The position numbers and the translations under genes were made by a program. This document shows positions 1 through 13,105 of a DNA stretch of 37,706 bases, in pieces. Numbering within the stretch: position 1 is the first letter of the stretch; each line of letters begins with the position of its first letter. The stretch spans positions 1 through 37,706 of the forward strand of contig JAOAPR010000249.1 in NCBI GenBank assembly GCA_025463005.1, given 5' to 3'. The notes under the pieces were generated by a model. The model worked only from the letters and a program-made list of their open reading frames with translations. It did no database searches and was not told the origin of the DNA. Source of the DNA: Bryobacterales bacterium. GTDB lineage: Bacteria; Acidobacteriota; Terriglobia; Bryobacterales; Bryobacteraceae.

Positions 1-10
1 GGAGCGGATT

Positions 11-829
11 TCAGCCGGTCGATTTCGGCCGCTTGTAACGCTGCGCAGTCTGAATCGACCAGCGCCGGATCAGTGCGTCCGGCGTCAGCCTGAGCATCCA
101 CACGATCAGCTTGTAGCGCCACCCGGGAATCACGAACAGCGCGCGCCGATCAAAGCCGCGCAGGCTCTCCTCGACTACGAAATCCGAGGTCATCCACAGC
201 GATGCCGGAATCCGCGAACGGTCCATGCCAATGGTGTCGTGAAATTCGGTTAGCGTGAAGCCGGGGCACAAGGCCTGCACAGTAACGGGGGACGATTTCG
301 CCGCCAGCTCCATCGCCAGGCCCTCGCTGAAGCGGTTCATCCACGTTTTGGTGGCGCTGTAGCTGACACTCTGAGGCGATACAACATAGGCCGCCACTGA
401 AGAAACGTTGATGATTCCGGTTCCCGCCGTAGCGCGTGGGATCAGATTCGTCAGGGCGGCATGCGAAAGCCGCACGGTTGCGAGCACGTGCAGCCGGTGC
501 ATTTGTTCCTGGACATTGGGGTCGGCTTCGAAGAAGTAACCCATGCTTCCGAATCCGGCGTTGTTAACCAGCAAGCCCAGATCGGCCGCCTCGCCGATTC
601 TGGACGCGGCCAGGTCGAGCGCGGCATCGTTGGTCAAATCGGTGGCCAGGATCTCCGTGCGAACGTGATACTGTTCGCGAACTTCATGTGCAATCGATTC
701 CAGCCGGTTCCCGCGGCGGGCGATCAGCAACAGGTCATAACCGCGAGCGGCCAGCTTTCGAGCAAATGTCGCGCCCAGACCGCTGGAAGCTCCGGTAATG
801 ACGGCCAGCATGTCCACATCATCGCGCAT
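11..829 (-). CDS. SDR family short-chain dehydrogenase
   Basis: Predicted NAD(P)-dependent short-chain dehydrogenase/reductase; the substrate cannot be told from sequence. The N-terminus carries the Rossmann dinucleotide motif TGASSGLG, followed by NNAG, a catalytic Ser in a VSSVAAY context and the YSATK catalytic Tyr/Lys pair. About 272 aa, normal to slightly long for a classical SDR; the C-terminal tail is hydrophobic then basic, which may associate with membrane. I chose the ATG at 829 because it overlaps the stop of the upstream YihY gene in a TGATG junction, giving translational coupling. An upstream extension to 883 would run into that gene, and an internal ATG at 811 sits right before the Rossmann strand. 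The YihY neighbour suggests a membrane or lipid-related role, but this is only inference. Confidence 0.9.
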   Translation of the reverse strand: MRDDVDMLAVITGASSGLGATFARKLAARGYDLLLIARRGNRLESIAHEVREQYHVRTEILATDLTNDAALDLAASRIGEAADLGLLVNNAGFGSMGYFFEADPNVQEQMHRLHVLATVRLSHAALTNLIPRATAGTGIINVSSVAAYVVSPQSVSYSATKTWMNRFSEGLAMELAAKSSPVTVQALCPGFTLTEFHDTIGMDRSRIPASLWMTSDFVVEESLRGFDRRALFVIPGWRYKLIVWMLRLTPDALIRRWSIQTAQRYKRPKSTG

Positions 830-1662
830 CAGTCCTTTGTAGGTGGATTCGCGTCCTTTAAACGATGTCCTCGCGCAGCCCACTCCGCTCCGGCCAGCAC
901 CAGCATCGAGGCGAAGAAACTCAGGAACAGAATCGTCGCGGAATAGCGAAATACGCCGTACTCCTTCTGGATGCGGGCATCCATCCAGGGCCAGATGAAT
1001 ATGTTCAGGTACTTCAGTGCTTCAAGCAGCAGTCCGACGCCGATCGCCGCGCCGATGACGCGATGCAGCGGCGGCCGTCCGTTGGGCAGATAGCGGTAAA
1101 TCAGAAACAGGATCAAGGAGGTCAGAGGCACCGCGGCCAGTTTAAAAAACAAGATAGAGGTCCACAGCTCAATCCGCAAACCGCCCGCGGATCCAACCCG
1201 CAGCTCGGTGATGCCGAGCGACAGCAGCGCCAGGCTGCCACAGCAGAAAATCAGCGCCAGGCTCACCACCTGATTGTGCAGATAGCTGCGGTTCTTGTGG
1301 ATGCCCCAGATCTTGTTGAACGCTACCTCCAGCGGTTCAAAAATTCCGTTCGACGAAAACAGCAGGAGCAACAGCGCTACCCAGTCGGTCAGGGGCCGCT
1401 GCGGAAGATTCTTGCTCAGGAATTCGCCGAGCGCGTCGGGGAAGTAATCGCGCAGCGCGAAATCGATCGCCGCCACGGTGGTTTGCCGGCTGAAAAACAC
1501 TTGCGAAAGCGACAGGCTAACGATCAGGAAGGGGAAGAATCCCAGCAGCACGTTGGCGGCGACGGAAAAGGCTAACGCGTGCACCTCCGTTTGGCTCCAG
1601 TAGCGCAGAGTCGGCAAAATCGCGTCCAGGATGGATCTCAGGAAGCCCCGTCGCGGTTGCAT
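829..1662 (-). CDS. YihY/virulence factor BrkB family membrane protein
   Basis: A 277-residue polytopic inner-membrane protein of the YihY/BrkB (formerly RNase BN) family. The biochemical role of the family is unsettled, and the old RNase BN assignment was withdrawn. About six hydrophobic segments are visible. The family-like features are an N-terminal ALAFSVAANVLLGFFPF segment, a central SSNGIFEPLEVAFNKIWGI stretch and the YRYLPNGRPP loop before the last helices. The start is ATG at 1662; no convincing Shine-Dalgarno precedes it. Only 32 bp separate it from the divergent gene starting at 1695. It ends in a TGATG overlap with the SDR gene, so the two are probably co-expressed. Confidence 0.88.
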   Translation of the reverse strand: MQPRRGFLRSILDAILPTLRYWSQTEVHALAFSVAANVLLGFFPFLIVSLSLSQVFFSRQTTVAAIDFALRDYFPDALGEFLSKNLPQRPLTDWVALLLLLFSSNGIFEPLEVAFNKIWGIHKNRSYLHNQVVSLALIFCCGSLALLSLGITELRVGSAGGLRIELWTSILFFKLAAVPLTSLILFLIYRYLPNGRPPLHRVIGAAIGVGLLLEALKYLNIFIWPWMDARIQKEYGVFRYSATILFLSFFASMLVLAGAEWAARGHRLKDANPPTKD

Positions 1663-1682
1663 GTATTTCTTAGGTTAACGGG

Positions 1683-1688
1683 TACACT
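1683..1688 (+). promoter_or_regulatory. Putative -10 box of a leaderless promoter
   Basis: TACACT lies six bases before the ATG at 1695 with no Shine-Dalgarno between them. Transcription would start at or next to the start codon. No good -35 box is present at 16-18 bp (TTGCAT is 20 bp away), so the call rests on the -10 and its position. Confidence 0.4.
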
Positions 1689-1694
1689 AGATTC

Positions 1695-2048
1695 ATGAAG
1701 ACCTCACTTTTCCGGCGATTGATTGCTCCCCTTATCGCCTGCGCGCTCATGACGGGTGTCGCGCTGGCGCAGACCAAGGATGCTCCGAAAACTGCCCCCA
1801 AAGCGGCGTCAAAGACGGCAGACACCGCCAAGAAGAGCGGCGACCTGGTGGACATCAACTCCGCCACCGCCGACCAGCTCAAGGCCCTGCCGGGAATCGG
1901 CGATGCGTATTCGCAAAAAATTATCGCGGGCCGGCCGTACGCGCGCAAAGATCAGCTGGTTTCGAAGAACATCGTTCCGAAGGCCACCTACGACAAGGTG
2001 AAGGATTCCATCATCGCCAAGCAGTCCAGCGCTCCGAAGAAGAAATGA
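1695..2048 (+). CDS. Exported helix-hairpin-helix (ComEA-like) protein
   Basis: A 117-residue protein with an N-terminal signal peptide (basic MKTSLFRR, hydrophobic core, cleavage probably after ALA near residue 25). A low-complexity Lys/Ala/Pro/Thr linker follows. The C-terminal domain begins at about residue 50 with [18 protein letters not shown], the typical ComEA-type helix-hairpin-helix DNA-binding start. Family members bind DNA outside the cytoplasm, for example in DNA uptake, but many small exported HhH proteins have no known role. Seven bp separate it from the radical SAM gene, so it may lead that operon. The start is ATG with no visible Shine-Dalgarno; a TACACT hexamer lies six bases upstream. 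Confidence 0.85.
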
Positions 2049-2055
2049 CCGAATA

Positions 2056-3393
2056 GTGAACGTTGTTCTCATTTCGACTTATGAGCTCGGCCACCAGCCG
2101 TTCGGCCTGAGCTCGCCCACGGCTTGGCTGGTCCGGGAAGGTCATGAGGTGGTGTGCCTGGACCTCGCGGTTGCTCAGTTGGACGAGGCCGCGATTCGCG
2201 CCGCCGACCTGGTCGCCTTCTATTTGCCGATGCACACGGCGACTCGGCTCGCGATACCGGTCATCGAGCGAGTGAAGCAGCTCAACCCGCGCGCCCGCTT
2301 GGCCTGTTATGGTCTGTATGCTCCGCTCAACGGCGACCTTTTGCGCGGGCTCGGCGTCGAAACCGTGATCGGTGGGGAGTTTGAGGCTGCGCTGGTCCAA
2401 CTCGCGACCGGTGCAGGCGCGGCGGAACCTGCGGAATCGATGCCGCGCCTCACCTTCCTGACACCGGATCGGCGAGGTCTTCCAGGATTGGCATCGTATT
2501 CACATCTGCGGCAGAACGGGACCAAGACGACCGCGGGATACACCGAGGCCAGCCGCGGCTGCAAGCATGTGTGCCGGCACTGCCCTGTGGTTCCGGTGTA
2601 CGAAGGACAATTTCGCGTGGTGCAGCGCGAGGTGGTGCTCGAGGACATCCGGCAACAGGTAGCAGCCGGCGCGCGCCACATTACCTTCGGCGATCCCGAT
2701 TTCTTCAACGGCCCGACCCACGCCATGCGGGTCGTGGAAGCGTTCCATACCGAATTTCCCGAAGTCACCTACGACGCGACTATTAAAATCGAGCATCTCA
2801 AACAGCATCGCGACCTGCTTCCGAAGTTGAAGGAGACCGGCTGCCTGTTTATCACCAGCGCGGTCGAATCCATTGACGATTCCGTGCTGGCCCGCTTGGA
2901 AAAAGGTCACACGCGTCAGGACTTCTTCGAGGTTGCCACGTGGTTGCGCGAGGCCGGCCTGGCCCTCCAGCCGACCTTCATCGCCTTCATGCCGTGGACC
3001 ACGATCAAAGGATACGGCGAGTTGTTGCGGGCGCTCGCGGAACTGGACCTGGTGGAGAACACCGCGCCGGTACAACTCGCTTTGCGATTGCTGGTCATGC
3101 AGAACTCGCGGCTGCTGGAGCTGCCGGAACTGCGAGCCGTGATCGGCCCATTTGACACCACAGCCCTCGTGTACCCGTGGAAGCATCCCGATCCTGAGGT
3201 CGACGCTCTGGGCGCCACGGTTTTTCAACTGGTAAGCCGGCGCCAGCAGGAAAATAAAACGCGCGCGGAAATCTTCGCCGAGCTTTGGGAGCTGGTTCTT
3301 CAAACGCCGGCTCCAGCCCTTCGGTCCCAGCCGCCCGTTCCCCATTTGGACGAGCCCTGGTATTGCTGCGCGGAACCTGCCCCGCAAGTGTAG
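2056..3393 (+). CDS. CUAEP/CCAEP-tail type radical SAM protein
   Basis: A 445-residue radical SAM enzyme. Residues 1-120 form a Rossmann-like N-terminal region resembling a B12-binding domain. The [4Fe-4S] motif is Cys169-x3-Cys173-x2-Cys176, followed by a TIM-barrel core to about residue 340. The C-terminus ends in WYCCAEPAPQV with Cys437-Cys438. This matches a family I recall as 'CUAEP/CCAEP-tail radical SAM (seleno)protein', in which the second Cys is selenocysteine in some species; here the codon is TGC, so it is the Cys form. The reaction is unknown to me. GTG start, seven bp after the HhH gene and six bp before the ATP-grasp gene, which is probably its functional partner. Confidence 0.85.
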   Translation: MNVVLISTYELGHQPFGLSSPTAWLVREGHEVVCLDLAVAQLDEAAIRAADLVAFYLPMHTATRLAIPVIERVKQLNPRARLACYGLYAPLNGDLLRGLGVETVIGGEFEAALVQLATGAGAAEPAESMPRLTFLTPDRRGLPGLASYSHLRQNGTKTTAGYTEASRGCKHVCRHCPVVPVYEGQFRVVQREVVLEDIRQQVAAGARHITFGDPDFFNGPTHAMRVVEAFHTEFPEVTYDATIKIEHLKQHRDLLPKLKETGCLFITSAVESIDDSVLARLEKGHTRQDFFEVATWLREAGLALQPTFIAFMPWTTIKGYGELLRALAELDLVENTAPVQLALRLLVMQNSRLLELPELRAVIGPFDTTALVYPWKHPDPEVDALGATVFQLVSRRQQENKTRAEIFAELWELVLQTPAPALRSQPPVPHLDEPWYCCAEPAPQV

Positions 3394-3399
3394 CTCAAC

Positions 3400-4617
3400 A
3401 TGAAAAGAGTGCTTCTGGTCGCGGCGACCACGGGCTATCAGGTGCGCGAGTTTGCCGAGGCAGCTCGGACCCTCGACGTGGAGCTGGTGCTCGCGACGGA
3501 CCGCTGCCACATTCTGGAAAATCCGTGGGGCGATGATGCCGCGGCGGTTCGTTTCGAGGATCCCGAGCCGGGCATCGAGGGGCTGGCCGCGCGCGGGCCG
3601 TTTGATGGCATCCTGGCGGTCGGCGATCGGCCTGCATGCGTGGCCGCGCAGGCGGCGGAGCGGCTGGGATTGCGCTTTCATCCTGCCGAAGCGGCTCGCG
3701 CGGCGGCGAATAAGCTGCTGGCGCGCGAACATTTTCGTGCCGGCGGATTGCAGGTTCCCGAGTTTCGGCGAATGGCGCTGGCAGATGCCGCTCTCGCGCA
3801 TGTCCGGTTTCCCTGCGTGCTGAAGCCGCTTGATTCTTCAGCCAGCCGCGGCGTCATCCGCGCCAATAACCAGGAAGAATTCCGTGCAGCGGTGGAGCGC
3901 ATCGCCCGCATCCAGGATGGCGATCTGCTCGTCGAAGACTATATTCCGGGACACGAATTTGCGCTGGAGGGAGTCGTCACCGGCGGAAAGCTCCACACCT
4001 TGGCGCTGTTCGACAAACCTGATCCATTGGAAGGTCCCTACTTCGAAGAGACGATTTACGTCACGCCTTCCCGCGAGCCGGAAGAAATCCAGCGGCAAAT
4101 TCGCGAAACCGCACAGGCCGCGGTGACCGCGCTCGGTCTCTCAGACGGGCCGGTCCATGCGGAAATGCGGGTGAACGATCACGGAGTATGGATCCTGGAG
4201 GCGGCGGCCCGGCCCATTGGCGGACTTTGCTCGCGTGTGCTGCATTTCGTGTCGCCCCATCTGACGGGCTCTTATTGGACACTTGAGCAACTGCTGTTGC
4301 GCCATGCGATGGGCGAAGACGTTTCGAGCGCGACTTTGGCCGCGGGAGCCCATGGAGTGATGATGATACCTATCCCGCACGCCGGGGTTTACCGCGGGGT
4401 CCGTGGACTGGAGGACGCTCGCCGGGTCCCGGGGGTAGAAGATATTGTGATCACTGCCAAAGAAGGACAGGAAATGTTTCCCTTGCCTGAAGGATCTGCA
4501 TACCTGGGCTTTCTGTTTTTCCGGGGGGCATCCGTCAATAAAGTAGAAAAGGGCCTCCGGGCGGCGCACCAGCAGCTGGAATTCATTCTTTCAGCGGCCC
4601 TTTCGGTCGTAAAATAG
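3400..4617 (+). CDS. ATP-grasp domain carboxylate-amine ligase-like protein
   Basis: A 405-residue ATP-grasp enzyme. An N-terminal pre-ATP Rossmann region (MKRVLLVAATTGYQ) leads to the ATP-grasp core: Lys142 in VLKPLD, a glycine-rich-loop equivalent (SSASRG), Glu179 in LVEDY, then metal-binding Glu255 (HAEMR) and Glu267 (ILEAAARPIGG). The family couples a carboxylate to an amine or similar nucleophile through an acyl-phosphate, as in L-amino acid ligases and BioC-carboxylase-like enzymes. The C-terminal 100 residues resemble the extra domain of L-amino acid ligases. ATG start, six bp after the radical SAM gene, eight bp before the UDP-glucose dehydrogenase gene. The substrate is unknown; the pairing suggests the two act on one small molecule or peptide. 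Confidence 0.87.
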   Translation: MKRVLLVAATTGYQVREFAEAARTLDVELVLATDRCHILENPWGDDAAAVRFEDPEPGIEGLAARGPFDGILAVGDRPACVAAQAAERLGLRFHPAEAARAAANKLLAREHFRAGGLQVPEFRRMALADAALAHVRFPCVLKPLDSSASRGVIRANNQEEFRAAVERIARIQDGDLLVEDYIPGHEFALEGVVTGGKLHTLALFDKPDPLEGPYFEETIYVTPSREPEEIQRQIRETAQAAVTALGLSDGPVHAEMRVNDHGVWILEAAARPIGGLCSRVLHFVSPHLTGSYWTLEQLLLRHAMGEDVSSATLAAGAHGVMMIPIPHAGVYRGVRGLEDARRVPGVEDIVITAKEGQEMFPLPEGSAYLGFLFFRGASVNKVEKGLRAAHQQLEFILSAALSVVK

Positions 4618-4625
4618 GAGACATT

Positions 4626-5984
4626 GTGAACGTTGCGATCCTTGGAACGGGCTATGTCGGATTGACCACCGGCGCCTGCCTCGCTTATCTCGGTCATCGG
4701 GTCACGTGCGTGGACCCGGATGCACACAAGATCGGCGCGCTGCAGCGCGGTGAGGTGCCCTTCTACGAACCGCATCTGGAGGACCTGTTGGTGGAGGCCC
4801 GCCCCAATCTGCAGTTCACTATGGACTATGCGGAGGCGATTCCCGAGGCGCAGGTGATTTTCATCGCCGTTGGCACACCACCTGGCAACGGAGGGGCGCC
4901 CGACTTGCGGTATCTGCAGGCCGCCGCCGAAGGTGTCGGGGAACGGATGGGCCCGCATTTTACTGTGGTCGTGAACAAATCCACCGTGCCGATCGGAAGC
5001 GGCAACTGGGTGGGCGCGCTGGTCCGTGACGCGGTGGAGCGCCAGGGACGAGGCCGCGGTTGTTTCTCCGTCGCGTCGAATCCCGAGTTTCTCCGCGAAG
5101 GCAGCGCCCTGCACGACAGCCTGTACCCGGATCGCGTGGTGATCGGCGCCGACGAGTCTCAGACCGCGGAAATACTCTATACGCTGTACCGCCCGATACT
5201 CGATCAGACCTTTCAGCCGCCCCCGTTCCTGCCCAGACCGGACCGGGTGGGCGCCGTTCCGCTTATTTCCACGGATCTCGCTTCGGCCGAGCTGATCAAG
5301 TACGCGGCCAACGCATTCCTTGCGCTCAAGATCAGCTACATCAATGAAATTGGACAGTTAGCGGAAAAGGTTGGCGCGGATATTGCGCAGGTCGCGCGCG
5401 GAATCGGCCTGGACGCCCGCATCGGCACGCGCTTTCTGCAGGCGGGCATCGGTTGGGGCGGATCGTGCTTCGGAAAGGACACCGCGGCCCTGGTGTCCAC
5501 CGCCTCCGAATATGGGCTCGAGATGTCGATCGTGAAGGCCGCCCGCGAAGTGAATCGGCGGCAGCGGGAACGCGTAGTCGAAAAGCTCCTCGCGGAATTG
5601 AAAATTCTCAAAGGCCGCACCATCGGCCTGCTGGGCCTGGCATTTAAGCCTCACACCGACGATCTGCGGGAAGCCCCAGCGCTAGACGTCGCCCGCCACC
5701 TTCTGGAACGCGGCGCGCGCGTGAAGGTCCACGATCCTGTCGCGATGGACCGGTTCAAGAAGGAACATGCGGGCCTGGATGTGATCCTCGCATCCGATGC
5801 ATATGAGGTGGCTCGCGAAGCCGATGCCCTGGTTCTGGTGACGGAGTGGCCGCAGTATCTGGAGCTGGACTGGGAACCGCTCGCGTCGTGCATGCGAACC
5901 CCTATCCTATTGGATGCACGGCACGTACTCGATCGCGCGCGAGTAGCAAGGGCAGGATTCCGCTACCTGACTTTAGCCGGATAA
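4626..5984 (+). CDS. ugd: UDP-glucose 6-dehydrogenase family protein
   Basis: Oxidises UDP-glucose to UDP-glucuronate with two NAD+, feeding exopolysaccharide or lipid A sugar synthesis; a GDP-mannose or other UDP-sugar substrate cannot be excluded. The 452 residues have the N-terminal Rossmann motif GTGYVGLTTG, the VAVGTPP-type segment (IAVGTPPGNGG), ELIKYAANAFLALKISYINE (central domain, Lys225) and the catalytic Cys281 in GWGGSCFGKD. A C-terminal UDP-binding domain has the LGLAFKPHTDDLREAPA motif. GTG start at 4626 with AGGAG at 4616-4620, overlapping the stop of the ATP-grasp gene. It is probably co-transcribed with it. Confidence 0.93.
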   Translation: MNVAILGTGYVGLTTGACLAYLGHRVTCVDPDAHKIGALQRGEVPFYEPHLEDLLVEARPNLQFTMDYAEAIPEAQVIFIAVGTPPGNGGAPDLRYLQAAAEGVGERMGPHFTVVVNKSTVPIGSGNWVGALVRDAVERQGRGRGCFSVASNPEFLREGSALHDSLYPDRVVIGADESQTAEILYTLYRPILDQTFQPPPFLPRPDRVGAVPLISTDLASAELIKYAANAFLALKISYINEIGQLAEKVGADIAQVARGIGLDARIGTRFLQAGIGWGGSCFGKDTAALVSTASEYGLEMSIVKAAREVNRRQRERVVEKLLAELKILKGRTIGLLGLAFKPHTDDLREAPALDVARHLLERGARVKVHDPVAMDRFKKEHAGLDVILASDAYEVAREADALVLVTEWPQYLELDWEPLASCMRTPILLDARHVLDRARVARAGFRYLTLAG

Positions 5985-5990
5985 TACAAT
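5985..5990 (+). promoter_or_regulatory. Putative -10 box before the SirB1-like gene
   Basis: TACAAT lies eight bases before the GTG at 5999, just after the ugd stop. No strong Shine-Dalgarno is seen, so a leaderless or very short-leader transcript is possible. No clear -35 was found. Read-through from ugd is also likely. Confidence 0.3.
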
Positions 5991-5998
5991 ATAAGCAG

Positions 5999-6811
5999 GT
6001 GAACGATCTGCGCCATCTGCATGAGGTCCTGGCAGAGGAGACTCCCCGGGTCCGCCTGGACCGCGCGGCGCTGGATCTGGCCAGTATTCACTTCCCGAAT
6101 CTAGAGCCGGAGCCGTTCCTGGACCGCTTGAACGATCTCGCCTCATCGCTCGGCGACCGGCTCCGTAACTTCAACGATGGACGCGACTTCGTCGAAAAGG
6201 CCAGCAGTTATCTGTTCGGCGAGCTGGGTTTCCATGGCAACGAGACCGATTTTTTCGACCCCCTCAACAGTTGCCTGAACCAGGTGCTGGAGCGGCGGAC
6301 GGGCATCCCAATCACCCTGGCCGTCATGTACATGGAGATCGCGCGACGCCTGCATATGCCTGTATTCGGCATCGGCCTGCCACGTCATTTCGTGCTCGAA
6401 TTCAACGACGGGAATTTCGCCACTTACATCGATCCATTTCATGGCGGCCGAACGATTACAGTCCAGGAGTGTTTCGCGCTGGCCGGGGCCAAAGTTGCCG
6501 ATCCGCTGCTTCTTCAGCGCGCGACCCCCAAGCAGATTGCCATGCGGATGCTGCAAAATCTCCACGGAGTGTACCTGCGGGCGCGGGATTTTGAGAAAGC
6601 GATCACCACGCTCGACTTGTTGCTCCTGGGAGCGCCTGAAACTCCGCCGTGGTACAAGCGGCGAGGGGTACTTTCACTCGAATTGCGGCGCTATCATGCC
6701 GCTCGGCGGGATCTTCTCAAATACCTGGAGTTAGAGCCGGAAGCCACCGATCGTGAGGCGATCCAGAAGCAGCTCCAGGCGATTCACTTGTGGCTGGCCC
6801 AGGTGAGTTGA
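5999..6811 (+). CDS. SirB1 family protein: transglutaminase-like plus TPR
   Basis: A 270-residue protein of the SirB1 family. The N-terminal half is the transglutaminase-like domain (DFFDPLNSCLNQVLERRTGIPITLAVMY split across the region, then PRHFV and IDPFHGG). No Cys sits at the usual transglutaminase nucleophile position, as in other SirB1 proteins, while His and Asp equivalents remain. The C-terminal part from about residue 190 is a TPR region (helical pairs around FEKAITTLDLLLL and YHAARRDLLKYLELEPEA). Function is unknown. I chose GTG at 5999; a longer reading frame starts inside ugd at 5846 but its first 51 residues are only the shadow of ugd. Confidence 0.82.
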   Translation: MNDLRHLHEVLAEETPRVRLDRAALDLASIHFPNLEPEPFLDRLNDLASSLGDRLRNFNDGRDFVEKASSYLFGELGFHGNETDFFDPLNSCLNQVLERRTGIPITLAVMYMEIARRLHMPVFGIGLPRHFVLEFNDGNFATYIDPFHGGRTITVQECFALAGAKVADPLLLQRATPKQIAMRMLQNLHGVYLRARDFEKAITTLDLLLLGAPETPPWYKRRGVLSLELRRYHAARRDLLKYLELEPEATDREAIQKQLQAIHLWLAQVS

Positions 6812-6854
6812 TCGCCAGCGTATGCTAATATTGCCTTCGAACTCTTAAAGTACG

Positions 6855-7154
6855 ATGCATGAATCCCTTCCAGATAGCGATGCGGTCCTCGCACAATTCA
6901 ACCGGCTGATTCAAGAATTGCTGCGGGGCAACATGCACCGCAACACGTTCCGGCCGTGGGAAGTCGAGCTGCTGCTGGACATCGAAGCCTGTAACCTGCG
7001 CGATTCTTCGCGGCGGGAAACCCTGCGCCGATACCAGCGCGCGGTGCAGCGGCATATGGAAAAAGGCGCGCGCCTGCCATTGAAGCTGTCCGAGTACCTG
7101 GACGCGGTGAAAGCCAAGAAGACCACTCCTAAGGCGGATCCGGCCGCGCTTTGA
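6855..7154 (+). CDS. Small hypothetical protein
   Basis: A 99-residue protein that I do not recognise. It is charged and mostly helical in appearance, with no signal peptide, membrane segment or Cys pair. It has a notable run of Arg-rich helix (RRETLRRYQRAVQRHMEKG) and a Lys-rich tail. The segment RPWEVELLLDIEACNLRDSSRRE looks like a small regulatory or dimerising helical domain. ATG start at 6855, 43 bp after the SirB1-like gene; no strong Shine-Dalgarno. Good codon structure and co-direction with its neighbours support it as a real gene. It ends 38 bp before yggX. Confidence 0.7.
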   Translation: MHESLPDSDAVLAQFNRLIQELLRGNMHRNTFRPWEVELLLDIEACNLRDSSRRETLRRYQRAVQRHMEKGARLPLKLSEYLDAVKAKKTTPKADPAAL

Positions 7155-7192
7155 CCACGGGCGCGCTATCCTGAAGGCGAGAGGAACTACAA

Positions 7193-7525
7193 ATGGGTTG
7201 CGGTAGCGGCATGCCAGGACCTCGCGTCGAAGAGGCCAACCAAAACGGGCGGAAAGTATTTTGCGTCAAGTTCCAGCGCGAGATGCCCGGCTTGGACGAG
7301 CCGCCTTTCGACAATCATCCGCTAGGCCAGCGCATCTACGAAAACGTTTCGAAGGAAGCCTGGAAGCTCTGGATCGAGCAGATGAAGATGATCATGAACG
7401 AATACCGCCTCAACCTGGGCACCCAAGAGGCGCAGGAGTTCCTGCTCAAGCAAATGGAAGAGTACTTCTTCGGGGAAGGCGCGGCGCTCCCGCCCGGATA
7501 CGTCCCGCCTCGGGCGAAAAATTAG
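7193..7525 (+). CDS. yggX: YggX-like oxidative damage/Fe(2+)-trafficking protein
   Basis: A cytoplasmic protein of the YggX family, linked to protection of Fe-S clusters and iron trafficking in Enterobacteria. Matches include VFCVKFQREMPGL (conserved Cys24 with the Q-R pair), GQRIYENVSKEAWKLW, MIMNEYRLN and a C-terminal PPGYVPP. The family is usually about 90 residues; here it is 110 with an N-terminal extension of about 20 residues containing another Cys (MGCGSG). The ATG at 7193 is preceded by GAGAGGAA, a good Shine-Dalgarno. A start at the internal Met7 is possible. It overlaps the convergent ridA-like gene by 4 bp. Confidence 0.88.
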   Translation: MGCGSGMPGPRVEEANQNGRKVFCVKFQREMPGLDEPPFDNHPLGQRIYENVSKEAWKLWIEQMKMIMNEYRLNLGTQEAQEFLLKQMEEYFFGEGAALPPGYVPPRAKN

Positions 7526-7911
7526 TCGCGCGGCTTGAACGCCACGCAGTCGATTTCTACCAGCATTTCGGCCTGGTGAAATTTTGCCTCGACAGTCGTT
7601 CTTGCCGGTTTGTGATCCCCGAAGAATTCTGCATATGCGCGGTTCATCTTCGGGAAATCGGCGATGTCACGCAGGAACACTGAACATTTGACGACGTCAC
7701 TGATCGCCGCGCCAGCCGCTGCCAAAATCCGGTGGATGTTCGAGAGCGTCAGTCGTGTCTGAAATTCAACGTCGCCGGGCGCGAGCTTGTCCGTGGCCGG
7801 ATCGATAGGACCCTGGCCGCTGACATAGACAAAATCGCCGGCGCGCAGTGCCGGAGTATAGTGTCCCCGAGGCGAGGCGCCGCCGGCGGGGACAATCTTC
7901 TCGATCCTCAT
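7522..7911 (-). CDS. RidA family enamine/imine deaminase-like protein
   Basis: A 129-residue protein of the YjgF/YER057c/UK114 (Rid) family. Active members hydrolyse reactive enamine/imine intermediates from pyridoxal-phosphate enzymes. Key features: YVSGQGPIDPATDK, NIHRILAAAGA, VKCSVFLRDI and the conserved Arg104 in KPARTTVEAK, which in RidA binds the substrate carboxylate. A C-terminal Glu (VEIDC) is also present. So it is likely an active deaminase, though subfamily is not resolved. ATG start at 7911 overlaps the NYN gene stop as TGATG, giving coupled translation. Confidence 0.9.
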   Translation of the reverse strand: MRIEKIVPAGGASPRGHYTPALRAGDFVYVSGQGPIDPATDKLAPGDVEFQTRLTLSNIHRILAAAGAAISDVVKCSVFLRDIADFPKMNRAYAEFFGDHKPARTTVEAKFHQAEMLVEIDCVAFKPRD

Positions 7912-9254
7912 CAGTTGCCGGGTTTTTTGCGGCCGCGAGGGCGGCGGCCCGCTCCGCCGGTTCCCGTGGGCTTGTTGGGCGTACGCCGGCGTGCGGCGGG
8001 AGCGCGCTTGGGCTTGGCCGGTGGCGGATTCGGCTCGAAGATGGTCGGCTGGCCTTCCACGTACGGCTGCGGCTCCTCTTCCTCTTCGACTTCCGGAGCG
8101 GCCTGCGGCTCAGGGGCAGGCGGCTCGGCCGGCGGATAAAACTCGGCGCCGAGATATACCATCATCACGCCCTGCTCCTCGTGCGGCTCCAGGCGAACCA
8201 CTGTCTTGTCCTGCGCGTAGTTCAGAAATTCACTGAACTGCTGGAATCCGTAGGACGTGGTGTCGAGATTGGGATGCTCCTCTTTGAACCACTGAGCGAG
8301 ATCTTCGACCGGGACGCCGTTTTCGATCTCCAGGCGGTGATTTTCGGCAACATCGCGCAGCGCCGGCAACAGGTCTTCAGGCTTAAGCGTGGCGCGCTCG
8401 GGCTGCGACGAACTCTTGCGCTCGATGACGTAGCGTCCGCCGGTTCCACTGACGTTCACCAGATCTTCGCGCTTGAGCTTCTCGACGAAGTCAGAGAAGC
8501 TCGAACCGCCGTAGGCGCGCTCGTTGAACGCGGGATCGAGCTGGAGCATGGTCGATTTGAGCAATCCGAGCTGCGGCTGCACACCACGGCGCTCCAGCAC
8601 CTGTAAGGCGCGCTCCACTAGCGGCATCGCTTGGGCCAGCTCCAGCGGAGCGGGCCTTTGGCGACGGTCGCCGCCTCGATCCTGGCCTCGGTCGGGCCGG
8701 TCGGTGCGTTCGGGCCGCTCACTTCCTTGCCGGTCGGGGCGCGGCCGCACTTGCCGGACTTCCTGTGCGAGGACGCTCGGCGGCAGATCCGATAACAGCG
8801 ATTCAAAGCTGATAAATTCGTGGCAATTCTGCTGGAGGATGGTGGAGGTGAACGCTTTGCCGCCCACCACGAACACCGTCTTCCCATACTCTTTCAATTT
8901 GTTCACCAGCGGAATGAAATCACTGTCGCCGCTGACGATGGCGAAGGCGTTCACATGCGTATGCGTAAACGCCATCTCCAGCGCGTCCAGGGCGAGGTTG
9001 ATATCCGCTCCGTTCTTATCGCCGCGCGGCGAAGGGATCCGCTGCACCATCTGTACGGCGTTTTCCGCCATCTGGCGCGTGGCTCCATCCTGGCGTCCCC
9101 AGTTGGCGTAAGCGAACTTGGCGACCAGGTCGCCGCGCTCCTTGAGCGCGTCCAGCGCGAGCGATACGTCGAACTCGCGACGCAAGGTCGACTTGAGTCC
9201 GATCTCGATGTTGTCGTAATCGACAAACACCGCAATATTCAATTTGTCCTGCAT
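7911..9254 (-). CDS. NYN domain protein with two LOTUS/OST-HTH-like domains
   Basis: A 447-residue putative ribonuclease. Residues 1-155 form a NYN/LabA (DUF88) PIN-like domain with the acidic residues Asp12 and Asp14 (VDYDN), Asp84 (ADINLALD), Asp110 and Asp112 (SGDSDF), consistent with metal-dependent RNA cleavage. A linker rich in Arg/Asp/Pro (165-200) follows. Two helical segments at about 203-278 and 292-370 resemble LOTUS/OST-HTH RNA-binding domains. The C-terminal tail after residue 375 is acidic, then Pro/Arg/Lys-rich. I chose ATG at 9254 because a GGAGAAG Shine-Dalgarno precedes it; the longer frame to 9323 would overlap the B12-binding gene. The arrangement resembles animal MARF1 and bacterial NYN-LOTUS proteins. 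Confidence 0.87.
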   Translation of the reverse strand: MQDKLNIAVFVDYDNIEIGLKSTLRREFDVSLALDALKERGDLVAKFAYANWGRQDGATRQMAENAVQMVQRIPSPRGDKNGADINLALDALEMAFTHTHVNAFAIVSGDSDFIPLVNKLKEYGKTVFVVGGKAFTSTILQQNCHEFISFESLLSDLPPSVLAQEVRQVRPRPDRQGSERPERTDRPDRGQDRGGDRRQRPAPLELAQAMPLVERALQVLERRGVQPQLGLLKSTMLQLDPAFNERAYGGSSFSDFVEKLKREDLVNVSGTGGRYVIERKSSSQPERATLKPEDLLPALRDVAENHRLEIENGVPVEDLAQWFKEEHPNLDTTSYGFQQFSEFLNYAQDKTVVRLEPHEEQGVMMVYLGAEFYPPAEPPAPEPQAAPEVEEEEEPQPYVEGQPTIFEPNPPPAKPKRAPAARRRTPNKPTGTGGAGRRPRGRKKPGN

Positions 9255-9276
9255 CAGTTTCTTCTCCAGTCTCGAG

Positions 9277-9678
9277 TCAAACTGTCTGTTTGACTGAGCT
9301 TCGGATGAACTCGACAATCTCATGAAGGGAGGCTCCCGGTTGAAAAACCGCGGCCACTCCCAGCCGTTTCAATTGCGCGGCATCTTCATCCGGTACGATG
9401 CCGCCTATGATGACCAATACGTCGGTCATCTTTTGTTGTTTGAGTAATTCCATCACGCGAGGCACGATGGCGTTGTGCGCTCCGGAAAGGATGGACAGGC
9501 CGATAACCTGCACATCTTCTTGAAGCGATGTGTTGACGATCATTTCCGGGGTCTGCCGGAGACCGGTATAGATGACCTCCATACCGGCATCCCGTAGCGC
9601 GCGGGCGATTACCTTGGCACCCCGGTCGTGGCCGTCGAGGCCGGGTTTGGCGACCAGCACCCGGATTCTATGATCCAT
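9277..9678 (-). CDS. B12-binding small subunit of acyl-CoA mutase
   Basis: A 133-residue cobalamin-binding subunit for a radical B12 acyl-CoA mutase. The motif Asp15-x-His17-x2-Gly20 ([10 protein letters not shown]) supplies the lower cobalt-ligand His; [11 protein letters not shown] and [11 protein letters not shown] complete the flavodoxin-like fold. Length fits the small (IcmB-type) subunits of split mutases. It probably pairs with the catalytic subunit at 13151-14737, although an AraC gene, a barrel gene and a glycosyltransferase-like gene lie between them. The neighbours downstream are the NYN and RidA genes, 22 bp and then TGATG apart. ATG start at 9678; no clear Shine-Dalgarno. An assignment as methylmalonyl-CoA mutase small subunit is an alternative. 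Confidence 0.88.
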
Positions 9679-9705
9679 AAAAGACTGCGATTGAGACTAC
9701 GATAC

Positions 9706-9797
9706 GCCGCTATTGCCTCCTAGGGCATGAGCGGTGCATCCACGACCTTGAGGATATCACGGCTGGGCACCCGGCGGTGGCTAGACACAATAGCGGC
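9706..9797. repeat. 10-bp perfect inverted repeat with 72-bp spacer
   Basis: GCCGCTATTG at 9706-9715 is the exact reverse complement of CAATAGCGGC at 9788-9797, with 72 bp between. It brackets the gap between the AraC gene and the B12-binding subunit gene; the right arm touches the AraC stop. It could form an extended stem or an operator pair, or be chance. Confidence 0.45.
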
Positions 9798-10723
9798 TAA
9801 AGGGGTTGGGTGGCTCCCACGGATCGGCGGTACTCCCCCGGCGCGATTCCCAGGACCCGCTTGAACGCCTTGTGGAAGGCGCCGTCCGAGTCGTAGCCGA
9901 CCGCCTGGGCCACATCCGCCAGTTTCCGGTCGCTCTCGCGCAGCAGGTCGCTTCCGCGATAGATCCGCCAGCGCGTCAGATACTCGAGCGGCGACTCGCT
10001 CATGACCGTCTTGAACCGTTGTGCGAAAGCCGAGCGGGACATACCGGCCTCCGAGGCCAGGGTAGCGACCGTCCATGGATGCTCGATACGCTTATGCATC
10101 GAGCTCAGCGCAGCGCCGATGTGGGCGTCGGAGAGCGCGTGCAGCCACCCGGTCCTTTCGGCCTGGGTGTCAGCTATGTGGGCACGCAGCGCCTGAATTA
10201 ACAGCAGGTCGGCCAGGTGGTGAACCGCTACTTGTGAGCCGGGCGTGGAGGCGTCAACTTCGGAAGCCAGCAGCTCCAGCGTCTTCTGCAACGCAAGTAA
10301 GTGCGGCTGCCCTGCGCGTATGAGAATTAGCAACGGCAGGAAATCCGTAAGCGGCCGGCCATGCGTTTCGTCAAAACTGAACCTGCCGGCGATGATTGCC
10401 GTGGGCGCACCGCCTCCGCCGAATCGGATCGGTTCGCAGCGTTTTTCTTTGAGCAGCTCGCTAAGCTGGCGGGGCGCCGTGTGAAGATCGTCCGACAAGA
10501 TGTATTCGCCGCCGGGCGCGAGCAGAAAGAAATCGCCGTGGGAAAGATGAATAGGGTCAGCCGTGCCAGGCAGGGTGAGCCAGGCTTGACCATACGAAAT
10601 TAATCCGAATCTCGCGTGCGATCCAGTTTCAGACTGCAGACCCCACGGAGCGGTTACTTGAATGCGTCCGTAACAGGCCCCTTGGACACGAACAGCGCTG
10701 AGAAAATCCGTAATGGCATCCAT
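9797..10723 (-). CDS. AraC family transcriptional regulator (cupin type)
   Basis: A 308-residue regulator. Residues 1-185 form a cupin-like sensor domain (typical of the AraC group with an N-terminal cupin_6 region). The C-terminal 100 residues are the double helix-turn-helix: LASEAGMSRSAFAQRFK and VAQAVGYDSDGAFHKAFKR, ending near PGEYRRS. The ligand is unknown. I chose the ATG at 10723 with an AAGGTGGG stretch upstream; a TTG two codons earlier is less likely. It is divergent from the outer-membrane barrel gene at 10864, so it may regulate that gene. This is an inference from position only. Confidence 0.92.
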   Translation of the reverse strand: MDAITDFLSAVRVQGACYGRIQVTAPWGLQSETGSHARFGLISYGQAWLTLPGTADPIHLSHGDFFLLAPGGEYILSDDLHTAPRQLSELLKEKRCEPIRFGGGGAPTAIIAGRFSFDETHGRPLTDFLPLLILIRAGQPHLLALQKTLELLASEVDASTPGSQVAVHHLADLLLIQALRAHIADTQAERTGWLHALSDAHIGAALSSMHKRIEHPWTVATLASEAGMSRSAFAQRFKTVMSESPLEYLTRWRIYRGSDLLRESDRKLADVAQAVGYDSDGAFHKAFKRVLGIAPGEYRRSVGATQPL

Positions 10724-10828
10724 GAACAACCCACCTTTTGCTTTGGACGATCGGATAGAATCTGCGGACTATCGATCAGGTCCAGTTTTAGCCCCAGTGC
10801 ATCCATAGGTCTGTAGATGCAATTGAAA

Positions 10829-10853
10829 GCCGGCCGGTTGCCGGCAAAGGAGG
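10829..10853 (+). promoter_or_regulatory. Hairpin next to a strong Shine-Dalgarno
   Basis: GCCGGC at 10829-10834 and 10840-10845 can pair over a five-base loop, directly abutting AAAGGAGG at 10846-10853, which is a strong ribosome-binding site eleven bases before the ATG at 10864. The hairpin could affect ribosome loading. The Shine-Dalgarno is clear; a regulatory role for the hairpin is not shown. Confidence 0.45.
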
Positions 10854-10863
10854 GAACTCGCAT

Positions 10864-11457
10864 ATGTTCGGAAATAAAGGTGTTGTTGCGCTTCTGCTAG
10901 GGGCGTCGGCTCTGGGGCTGCCGGCTTTCGCGCAGAGCGAGGAGTATAAGTCTGACGTGACAGTTCAAGCGTTGGGCAGTTTTGTAAAGGATACGACCGA
11001 TAACGGAGTGACTCATTCCGCCTCCAACAGCGGCGGCGTCTTGGGGACTTATCGTTACTATTTCGGCCGCCACCACGGCGTCGAGTTCAATTACGGCTAC
11101 ACGCTGAACTCGCAACGATACGCGCTGGACGGGAACATTTCCAGCACCAAGGCTTATTCGCATGAGGCAACAGCGGCCTACGTGTGGCGCCTGCCGCTCC
11201 ACCGGATTACTCCGTTTGCGCTAGCCGGAGCGGGCAGCCTGGTGTTCGATCCGAAGGACATCAGCGGCGATGTGCTGGCTCGTCCGACGTTCGTCTATGG
11301 CGCTGGCGCGGATTTCGATCTCGGCAGACGTTTCTTCCTGCGAGCGCAGTATCGCGGGCTGGTTTACAACAGTCCGACACTGGGAGCGTCTACGGTGAAT
11401 GCGGAGCTGCTGACCCATCGCGCCGAGCCATCGGCCGGATTCGGATTCCGGTTCTAA
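10864..11457 (+). CDS. Outer-membrane beta-barrel protein
   Basis: A 197-residue exported protein. A signal peptide (MFGNKGVVALLLGASALGLPAFAQ) is followed by alternating polar/aromatic strands typical of an OmpA/OprF-like eight-stranded barrel: GVLGTYRYYF, HGVEFNYGYT, SHEATAAYVWRL, ITPFALAGAGS, FVYGAGADFDL, FFLRAQYRGLVY. The C-terminus ends in Phe (GFGFRF), the usual signal for Bam-mediated insertion. Function beyond an outer-membrane barrel cannot be stated. ATG at 10864 with a strong AAAGGAGG upstream. Divergent from the AraC regulator; ends before a strong hairpin at 11475. Confidence 0.87.
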   Translation: MFGNKGVVALLLGASALGLPAFAQSEEYKSDVTVQALGSFVKDTTDNGVTHSASNSGGVLGTYRYYFGRHHGVEFNYGYTLNSQRYALDGNISSTKAYSHEATAAYVWRLPLHRITPFALAGAGSLVFDPKDISGDVLARPTFVYGAGADFDLGRRFFLRAQYRGLVYNSPTLGASTVNAELLTHRAEPSAGFGFRF

Positions 11458-11474
11458 CCGGATAGCCGCTTACT

Positions 11475-11521
11475 GGCGTTCGTGGTTCGGTGTAAGGCAG
11501 TGTCCACCGAACCGCGACGCC
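11475..11521. terminator. Hairpin between convergent genes, probable bidirectional terminator
   Basis: Arms 11475-11492 and 11505-11521 pair over about 17 positions, with a perfect nine-base core (GGTTCGGTG with CACCGAACC), one bulged base and one G-T pair. The loop is 11493-11504. It sits between the stops of two convergent genes. No T-run follows on either strand, so classic intrinsic termination is not certain. Confidence 0.55.
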
Positions 11522-11527
11522 GAGGGG

Positions 11528-13105
11528 CTAGAACAGGTGCGGCAAATGGCCTCCGGCTCGCGCCTGCGGAGCAGATTGACTCGCGGGCAACATCTCCATT
11601 AATTGAAAATCCGCCCATTCTTCCCTCCTCTGATAATTTTCCCGCACGAAGGCCTCGATTCCGGGCATTTGCAGCCGTCGCGGATCGCTGCTGGGCCAGA
11701 TTCGCAAATAGGCTTGCGGCGAAACCTGTGTATAAAAGACCCATCGCGGAGGATGCGCGCGCAACTCGCTCAATGCCTCCGATTCATCCTTCTCGGAAAA
11801 CATTCCCGGCTGCAAGAAGGAGTATCGTGTGGGATTATGCGCCCCGGTAACGAAGTACAGCAACGGCCGGTAGGGGAAGACGAATATAGTATCGGATGGC
11901 GTAACCCGCGCCTGGATCATCGCCAGGGTGTCGAGGTCGGCCTTCTGTCCGTGGACGCTTCCGACACCGCTGGCGCGTGTTGTTTCGCGAAGAGTTTCGC
12001 GAAGACGCTGCTGGATGCTAACCGTTAAGCAGGAGCCCGCGGCGATCAGTACAATGAGCGCCACAGCCTTTCGAATCGCCGAGGCCCTGGGAAATGAAGA
12101 TCGAGCGATCAACGCCGCCGCGAGCGCGTAGGACGGCGCTGAAACCAACGTCAGGTGACCGAGATCCCAACGAGGATAGGTTGAGAGAATCAACGCGAAC
12201 CCGAACGCCAGCAGGAATGCGACGCCCATCGAGGGGCGTTTCCACAACCAAATCGCGCTAAGAAACGGCAGCGTCGCAGGCAGGGTCAGGAATATCAGCA
12301 GCAGGATAGAAGTCGCCGTCTGATCCGGCGATGTTCCGCGCAAAAGGTTGGCGTAACCGCCGGTCACCGAGCCATACCAGGTCCGGTTGGGACCCGAGTA
12401 ATTGGACGCGCTCCATAGGAGCGAATCGAGCATCGCGGAAAGCGCTCCGGTGGAGGCGATCCACAATATTCCTATCGCCAACATGGCAGCAACACCACCC
12501 GCATAGGCCGCGAACAAGCGTCGCGTCGCACGATAGATAACGAGACAAGCGCCGAGCGCAGCGATCGCTAAAGCCACCGGCGGCGTACACCATGCGGCGA
12601 TTCCGCCCGCGATTCCCGCCGCAAAGCTGATCCAGATGGAAAGCCTGGCAGACGGATTCTCGGCAGCAGCAATGATCAGCGTTGCTGCTAGTACCGCCCA
12701 TCCGCTGGAATCCCAGCGATGGTTGGCGACCACCGCCGTTTCCCCGAGCGTCGCAAAAGCGAGGTAGGTGAAGGCCGCGAAGGCTGCCGTCATCGAATTG
12801 CCCAGCTTGGACACCAGCCAGAATAAGCACGCGGTGAGCACCGCGATGTCCCCCACCGCCGGCATTCTTCCCGCCGCGAGGGTCGTGCCGAACATACGAA
12901 AGCTTGCGGCCTCCAGAGCAAACGTTCCCGGCCCGGTAAGCGAAAAGAAATCTTTGTAAGGCACTTGGCCGTGCAAAACGCGGAGTCCGCCGTCGAGATA
13001 GATGCCTTCATCGTTCAAGGCGAGGAAGAATCGCGAGGCCGCCAGCCAGCCCAGATACGCAAAGGCGCACAAGAACACCACGCCGGTGCGCCGGGCCAGA
13101 GACAT
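11528..13105 (-). CDS. Polytopic membrane protein, GT-C glycosyltransferase-like
   Basis: A 525-residue integral membrane protein with about ten to eleven hydrophobic segments. After the first helix comes an acidic pair in a loop (LALNDEGIYLDGG followed by GQVPYKDFF), the usual position of the catalytic Asp/Glu in GT-C enzymes of the ArnT/PMT/GT39 type, which transfer sugars from polyprenyl phosphates. The C-terminal 150 residues form a soluble, extracytoplasmic domain (from about 390). The acceptor is unknown. ATG start at 13105, 45 bp after the mutase gene, no clear Shine-Dalgarno. Ends at a convergent hairpin shared with the barrel gene. Confidence 0.75.
   Translation of the reverse strand: MSLARRTGVVFLCAFAYLGWLAASRFFLALNDEGIYLDGGLRVLHGQVPYKDFFSLTGPGTFALEAASFRMFGTTLAAGRMPAVGDIAVLTACLFWLVSKLGNSMTAAFAAFTYLAFATLGETAVVANHRWDSSGWAVLAATLIIAAAENPSARLSIWISFAAGIAGGIAAWCTPPVALAIAALGACLVIYRATRRLFAAYAGGVAAMLAIGILWIASTGALSAMLDSLLWSASNYSGPNRTWYGSVTGGYANLLRGTSPDQTATSILLLIFLTLPATLPFLSAIWLWKRPSMGVAFLLAFGFALILSTYPRWDLGHLTLVSAPSYALAAALIARSSFPRASAIRKAVALIVLIAAGSCLTVSIQQRLRETLRETTRASGVGSVHGQKADLDTLAMIQARVTPSDTIFVFPYRPLLYFVTGAHNPTRYSFLQPGMFSEKDESEALSELRAHPPRWVFYTQVSPQAYLRIWPSSDPRRLQMPGIEAFVRENYQRREEWADFQLMEMLPASQSAPQARAGGHLPHLF

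Follow-up and report, generated by a model that had tools for sequence, protein, structure and literature searches.

What might a radical SAM protein that carries a Cys-Cys-Ala-Glu-Pro (CCAEP) sequence close to its C-terminus make together with the ATP-grasp ligase encoded directly behind it, and what would the product serve? Both genes lie in the window, by which we mean the whole stretch of 37,706 nucleotides analysed here (contig JAOAPR010000249.1 of assembly GCA_025463005.1, from a Bryobacterales bacterium of the phylum Acidobacteriota); the features under discussion are collected in Table 1. Our counts of ligase, YggX and Nfu genes refer to 141 loci: the window, 80 contigs of GTDB genomes (the best 80 of 576 confirmed, with a lean to Acidobacteriota), and 60 genome regions chosen by hand among the matches. 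Two of these loci (L115 and L187) are one record, which leaves 140 distinct ones, and other genomes may likewise recur in both collections. The tail was counted in 141 loci as well, without L187 and with the Thermomicrobium plasmid locus L118. The alignment of 137 sequences omits L085, L098, L246 and incomplete rows; the tree of 136 CUAEP rows (U for selenocysteine) omits L062, L085, L098, L110, L187 and L246. Clusters of stop-to-stop open reading frames contained antisense shadows and do not enter the neighbour counts.

Table 1. Features of the window and ligase genes of three plasmid loci used for comparison (positions are those of the window unless a locus is named)
Feature	Position	Strand	Evidence
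HhH protein	1695..2048	+	PF12836
Radical SAM protein, CUAEP/CCAEP-tail, Cys form	2056..3393	+	NF040546 621.5 bits (curated cut-off 500), PF04055 48.9 bits
CX3CX2C motif, residues 169-176	2560..2583	+	invariant in 137/137 aligned relatives
C-terminal CCAEP tail, residues 437-441	3364..3378	+	direct reading in 137/141 loci
ATP-grasp, L-amino-acid-ligase type (predicted)	3400..4617	+	PF13535 105.9 bits, LAL_C2 PF18603 53.6 bits
UDP-glucose dehydrogenase	4626..5984	+	
YggX / Iron_traffic protein, recurrent neighbour	7211..7525	+	PF04362 116.2 bits, cut-off 27
ATP-grasp, RCCLKC-tail plasmid locus, Priestia	L119 2635-3858		
ATP-grasp, RCCLKC-tail plasmid locus, Alicyclobacillus	L120 2436-3668		
ATP-grasp, RCCLKC-tail plasmid locus, Pantoea	L121 7461-8777		

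The first gene of the pair (GTG start, 445 residues) encodes a member of family NF040546 by NCBIfam profile search. Both traits for which the preliminary description had singled it out were located: the three Cys of the CX3CX2C motif (residues 169, 173 and 176), which are the expected ligands of the SAM-binding [4Fe-4S] cluster, and the CCAEP tail, which ends four residues ahead of the stop. NCBI already lists this family but assigns it no function, and our search found no description of one; the window protein reaches the membership score and has the tail, and the name of the record makes no mention of a ligase, YggX or Nfu. The B12-binding domain (PF02310) falls just below its cut-off (29.8 against 32.1 bits). 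The AlphaFold2 model has a mean pLDDT of 92.5, with means of 80 and 58 in the tail region (residues 431-440 and 441-445), and Foldseek places AprD4 (6fd2; TM 0.70, 16% identity) first, followed by TsrM, MgmA and OxsB, all of them radical SAM enzymes whose N-terminal domain is of Rossmann type. By phylum, and with the centre genome counted, the gene was found in 50/297 Acidobacteriota, 24/396 Actinomycetota, 63/251 Chloroflexota and 1/398 Pseudomonadota. One locus labelled as a Bifidobacterium breve MAG (L068) is probably a mislabelled bin; its radical SAM protein groups with those of L106 (labelled Acidobacteria) and L237.

The tail does not vary freely among homologues; free variation is what the preliminary description had named as speaking against a shared system. 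Wherever it is directly legible it has the form W[Y/F]C[U/C][A/S]EP, and the four remaining loci are compatible with it: one reads W-Y-UGA-UGA-A-E-P, one holds CUAEP in a different frame, in one the bases that follow W-Y-C-UGA are undetermined, and one stops at the contig end. Both Cys/Sec positions, E440 and P441 are invariant across the 137 aligned sequences. In many relatives the second position is an in-frame TGA, and UGA and Cys codons have been exchanged at least 27 times on the tree of 136 rows (90 U, 46 C). The selenocysteine suggested earlier for some relatives fits the distribution of SelA, which scored over its cut-off in 23 of 23 genomes with a UGA tail and in 16 of 24 with a Cys tail, both groups chosen by hand among the matches and the latter including the genome of the window. 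Because SelA accompanies the UGA tail in all 23 genomes, we read this UGA as very probably a selenocysteine codon; a search of the window's own genome found no SelA, so its Cys form is as expected. In L098, two adjacent in-frame UGA codons (positions 7553-7558) stand where other loci show Cys-UGA, possibly a Sec-Sec pair or else a single base error in a metagenome bin.

The second gene starts with ATG 6 bp behind the stop codon of the first, as described before, and encodes 405 residues with ATP-grasp_4 and LAL_C2 domains that both score above cut-off. Its nearest relative of solved structure is BL00235 (PDB 3vot; E 7.7e-70, family profile), for which a passage of PMC6920838 gives Met-Gly and Met-Met as products. 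The LAL_C2 domain is found in the window ligase too; the ligases linked to CUAEP genes form a clade of their own when set against those linked to ArsL. From the enzyme class, an activity of the L-amino-acid-ligase type (ATP-dependent formation of a dipeptide) is predicted.

The pairing of the two genes recurs in distant phyla, which is what the earlier reading had proposed to look for. The distance from the radical SAM gene to an ATP-grasp gene of this single family is at most 300 bp in 78/141 loci and at most 3 kb in 95/141, and 98/141 have one anywhere in the locus; none is present in 25 loci whose flanks both extend 3 kb or more, nor in 18 with a short flank. In 71 cases the called ligase gene is the immediate neighbour and runs in the same direction, with a gap of -30 to 60 bp in 52 of these. 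The loci with a ligase within 3 kb are labelled, among others, Acidobacteria, candidate division NC10, Latescibacterota, Rhodospirillales and Catenulispora. The radical SAM gene is present in 63 of 251 Chloroflexota genomes (61 over the cut-off), the ligase in 82 and both in 62, so that the ligase occurs somewhere in 62/63 positive and 20/188 negative genomes (Fisher p 7e-40, a statistic that ignores relatedness). In a FastTree phylogeny built from the CUAEP-linked and ArsL-linked ligases only, 91 of the former fall on one side of a branch and three of the latter on the other (support 100, with a long-branch warning). The protein distances of radical SAM proteins and ligases are correlated (r 0.59; 0/2000 permutations as high), a correlation also to be expected from shared species history by itself. 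Together, the conservation of the tail over phyla and the recurrence of the partner ligase go far beyond chance.

The preliminary description had also placed the pair in one run with the exported HhH protein and the UDP-glucose dehydrogenase. Both are indeed there, on the same strand; as constant partners they do not hold up and are local to the lineage, the HhH gene falling in no neighbour cluster and the dehydrogenase cluster occurring in 6/146 loci. Since neither is recurrent, both were dropped as parts of the system. The earlier remark that no precursor-peptide gene is visible agrees with our wider survey: the 60 largest clusters of called genes (at least 45 codons) hold no precursor-like small family apart from YggX, and a RiPP system with a precursor of that size was rejected for want of a recurrent small gene, though a very short precursor peptide may still occur. 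An Rfam scan of positions 1-12000 of the window gave no match above the gathering score. Smaller associations, each with one annotated member, are DUF169, found in 14 loci, and a formyltransferase-type gene (PF00551), which 14 of the 20 Chloroflexota loci L207-L226 carry, usually beside YggX. In three actinomycetotal loci (L195, L197 and L198) a direct neighbour of the radical SAM gene belongs to the SaoD/DsrE family (NF040913, an annotation made for L197 alone). In Catenulispora rubra (L187, positions 3368-7704, the same record as L115), the radical SAM gene is followed by genes for DUF169, an ArsR-family regulator, the ATP-grasp protein and a PLP decarboxylase; the ATP-grasp protein here has 607 residues, with an extra C-terminal stretch and a Cys-rich end.

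Two further families do recur as neighbours among the called genes of 146 loci: YggX/Iron_traffic proteins and Fe-S carriers of the Nfu/NifU type. YggX is present in 61/141 loci, Nfu in 32/141, and both together in none (0/141); one or the other lies within 3 kb of the radical SAM gene in 80/141. Their labels switch at least five times on the tree, or at least three times when well-supported branches are considered. The only YggX gene found in the window's genome is the one 3.8 kb downstream, on the same strand. Strong YggX genes were detected in 38/63 CUAEP-positive Chloroflexota genomes and in 2/188 negative ones, relatedness ignored, and 38 of these 40 are no more than 5 kb away from the radical SAM or ligase gene; strong stands for E 1e-27 or better and weak for 8e-18 or worse, a split set after the gap between them was seen. 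The weak YggX-like domain (29 Chloroflexota genomes) was rejected as a partner because it occurs in 2/63 positive and 27/188 negative genomes; it runs counter to the radical SAM gene and is perhaps a separate protein family. In Actinomycetota, a close relative of Nfu (E 5e-24 or better) is found in 22/24 positive and 0/26 negative genomes, class membership ignored and six of the negatives (G330-G335) being negative by absence among 24 radical SAM matches; weaker matches (3e-12 or worse) occur in 10 of the 26 negatives. In a locus from Latescibacterota an Rrf2-type regulator gene is followed by those for Nfu and the radical SAM protein, and the next gene, on the opposite strand, encodes the ligase. 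Of the 95 loci whose two flanks both extend 3 kb or more, 19 have neither ligase nor YggX nor Nfu within 3 kb, and the Thermomicrobium locus has none of the three.

Such neighbours could also belong to a radical SAM enzyme that inserts sulfur or otherwise consumes a cluster, which Nfu would reload as for lipoyl synthase, or to which YggX would feed iron, the ligase then using a sulfur-bearing amino acid. We consider this unlikely. Beyond CX3CX2C the strongly conserved Cys of the protein are C263 (132 of the 137 sequences) and the tail pair, few for a second cluster, and YggX, whose molecular role is still debated, is not known as a cluster carrier. On the other side stand the frequency of Nfu or YggX near the gene and the regeneration of the auxiliary cluster of lipoyl synthase by NfuA, as stated in a title cited in PMC8593673.

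Of immediate interest for the chemistry is ArsL (NF040542), which belongs with ArsM/ArsQ to arsinothricin biosynthesis and is the second-best family of the window protein with 256.3 bits, the third reaching 48.8; this nearest relative had been overlooked in the preliminary description, as had YggX and Nfu as a recurrent third component. The score lies below the curated ArsL cut-off of 450, identity to the closest ArsL-family plasmid proteins is 33-34% over 87% of the query, and the window protein has CCAEP in place of the RCCLKC end of the four ArsL plasmid proteins compared. Many near-invariant residues are shared with these four in the alignment, among them G12, Q14, D36, R139, Y148, H171, D213, D215, D240, H247, E271, K283, W314, R344, W375 and the Cys pair of the tail; near-invariant positions unlike ArsL include 59-61 (MHT against LFD) and H285, and C263 has no counterpart in ArsL. 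E. coli with ArsL alone forms hydroxyarsinothricin from As(III), and ArsL is proposed to transfer the aminocarboxypropyl (ACP) group of SAM onto arsenic, according to passages of PMC8552651. Three of the four ArsL-type plasmid loci (Priestia, Alicyclobacillus and Pantoea, not Pseudomonas) carry an ATP-grasp gene as well, in keeping with a possible dipeptide form of arsinothricin; the open-access literature searched yielded no paper joining arsinothricin with ATP-grasp.

The likeness raises the question whether the CUAEP pair itself makes an arsinothricin-like arsenical amino acid, which the ligase would convert into a dipeptide antibiotic. The common core residues, the Cys pair near the end and the ligase genes of the ArsL-type loci speak for such a pathway. 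When the proteins encoded at the four ArsL loci were compared by BLASTP (E 1e-8) with the surroundings of 142 CUAEP loci, however, one weak ArsM-like match and one ArsR-family gene (from a record present in duplicate) came up, and the ArsQ, ArsB, ArsN, MFS, aquaporin and COG0523 queries had no match. Arsenic was rejected as the obvious substrate on this near absence of ArsL-locus homologues, and the different tail, the separate ligase clades and the YggX or Nfu neighbours likewise set the CUAEP loci apart; we judge an arsenic pathway improbable. Taken together, the radical SAM chemistry may resemble that of ArsL, with a different atom and purpose. Equally improbable is that the genes make a natural product for secretion, an antibiotic or metallophore, and that the neighbouring iron proteins would only support the enzyme: the patchy spread over phyla and the Catenulispora locus, with its extended ligase and PLP decarboxylase, favour it, but no exporter was recognised in the largest recurrent clusters, some of which are annotated.

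The reading that we tentatively prefer is a two-enzyme pathway to a small molecule, in which an amino acid derived from SAM is ligated into a dipeptide that serves iron or Fe-S homeostasis. A soft atom would be held by the tail pair and attacked by a SAM-derived ACP radical, a step we suppose by analogy with ArsL, to give a methionine-like amino acid; and the BL00235-like ligase would, judging from its enzyme class, couple this amino acid to a second one. The dipeptide would act inside the cell as a ligand of iron or Fe-S clusters or as a reductant, like low-molecular-weight thiols, alongside YggX or Nfu. To our knowledge the glutathione and bacillithiol pathways have no radical SAM step, in contrast to the one proposed here; the likeness concerns the proposed role, namely iron buffering and the overlap with Nfu. 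A review (PMC8593673) describes glutathione as able to buffer iron and the loss of bacillithiol as suppressed by nfu or sufA in multicopy. It is because of these reports, and of the recurrence of YggX and Nfu as neighbours, that we infer a role of the product in iron or Fe-S homeostasis. BshC was set aside as a test of thiol replacement, on which it is uninformative because it was found in 0/48 Chloroflexota genomes, 24 positive and 24 negative alike. Several observations count against the proposed pathway: loci with ample flanks that have no ligase, or none of ligase, YggX and Nfu, the 20 Chloroflexota genomes with the ligase alone, and the iron and Fe-S neighbours themselves, which could simply serve the enzyme's own cluster. 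A more specific and more doubtful form of the proposal is a new class of intracellular low-molecular-weight ligands of iron or Fe-S in Acidobacteriota, Chloroflexota and Actinomycetota. These SAM-derived dipeptides of the thiol or selenol type would be the product of a dedicated ligase and a radical SAM enzyme with a selenocysteine tail, and YggX and Nfu would be their interchangeable protein partners.

The enzyme families are of known kinds; as far as our searches go, their three-part association is undescribed in the open-access literature, where we found no paper linking YggX with radical SAM and ATP-grasp and none on the combination of selenoprotein, radical SAM, Acidobacteria and selenocysteine, the strings CUAEP and CCAEP occurring in papers with unrelated titles. 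The comparison also points to ATP-grasp ligases at some arsinothricin-type loci, and it raises the question why a Cys/Sec pair is kept at the end of the enzyme. The pairing with the ligase and with YggX or Nfu leads to a testable hypothesis for a metabolite in phyla common in soil: the two enzymes, whose genes recur as a pair in distant bacteria and often stand beside that of one of two iron-handling proteins, may make an unrecognised molecule for the management of iron. If true, this would give YggX a genetic partner outside the proteobacteria.
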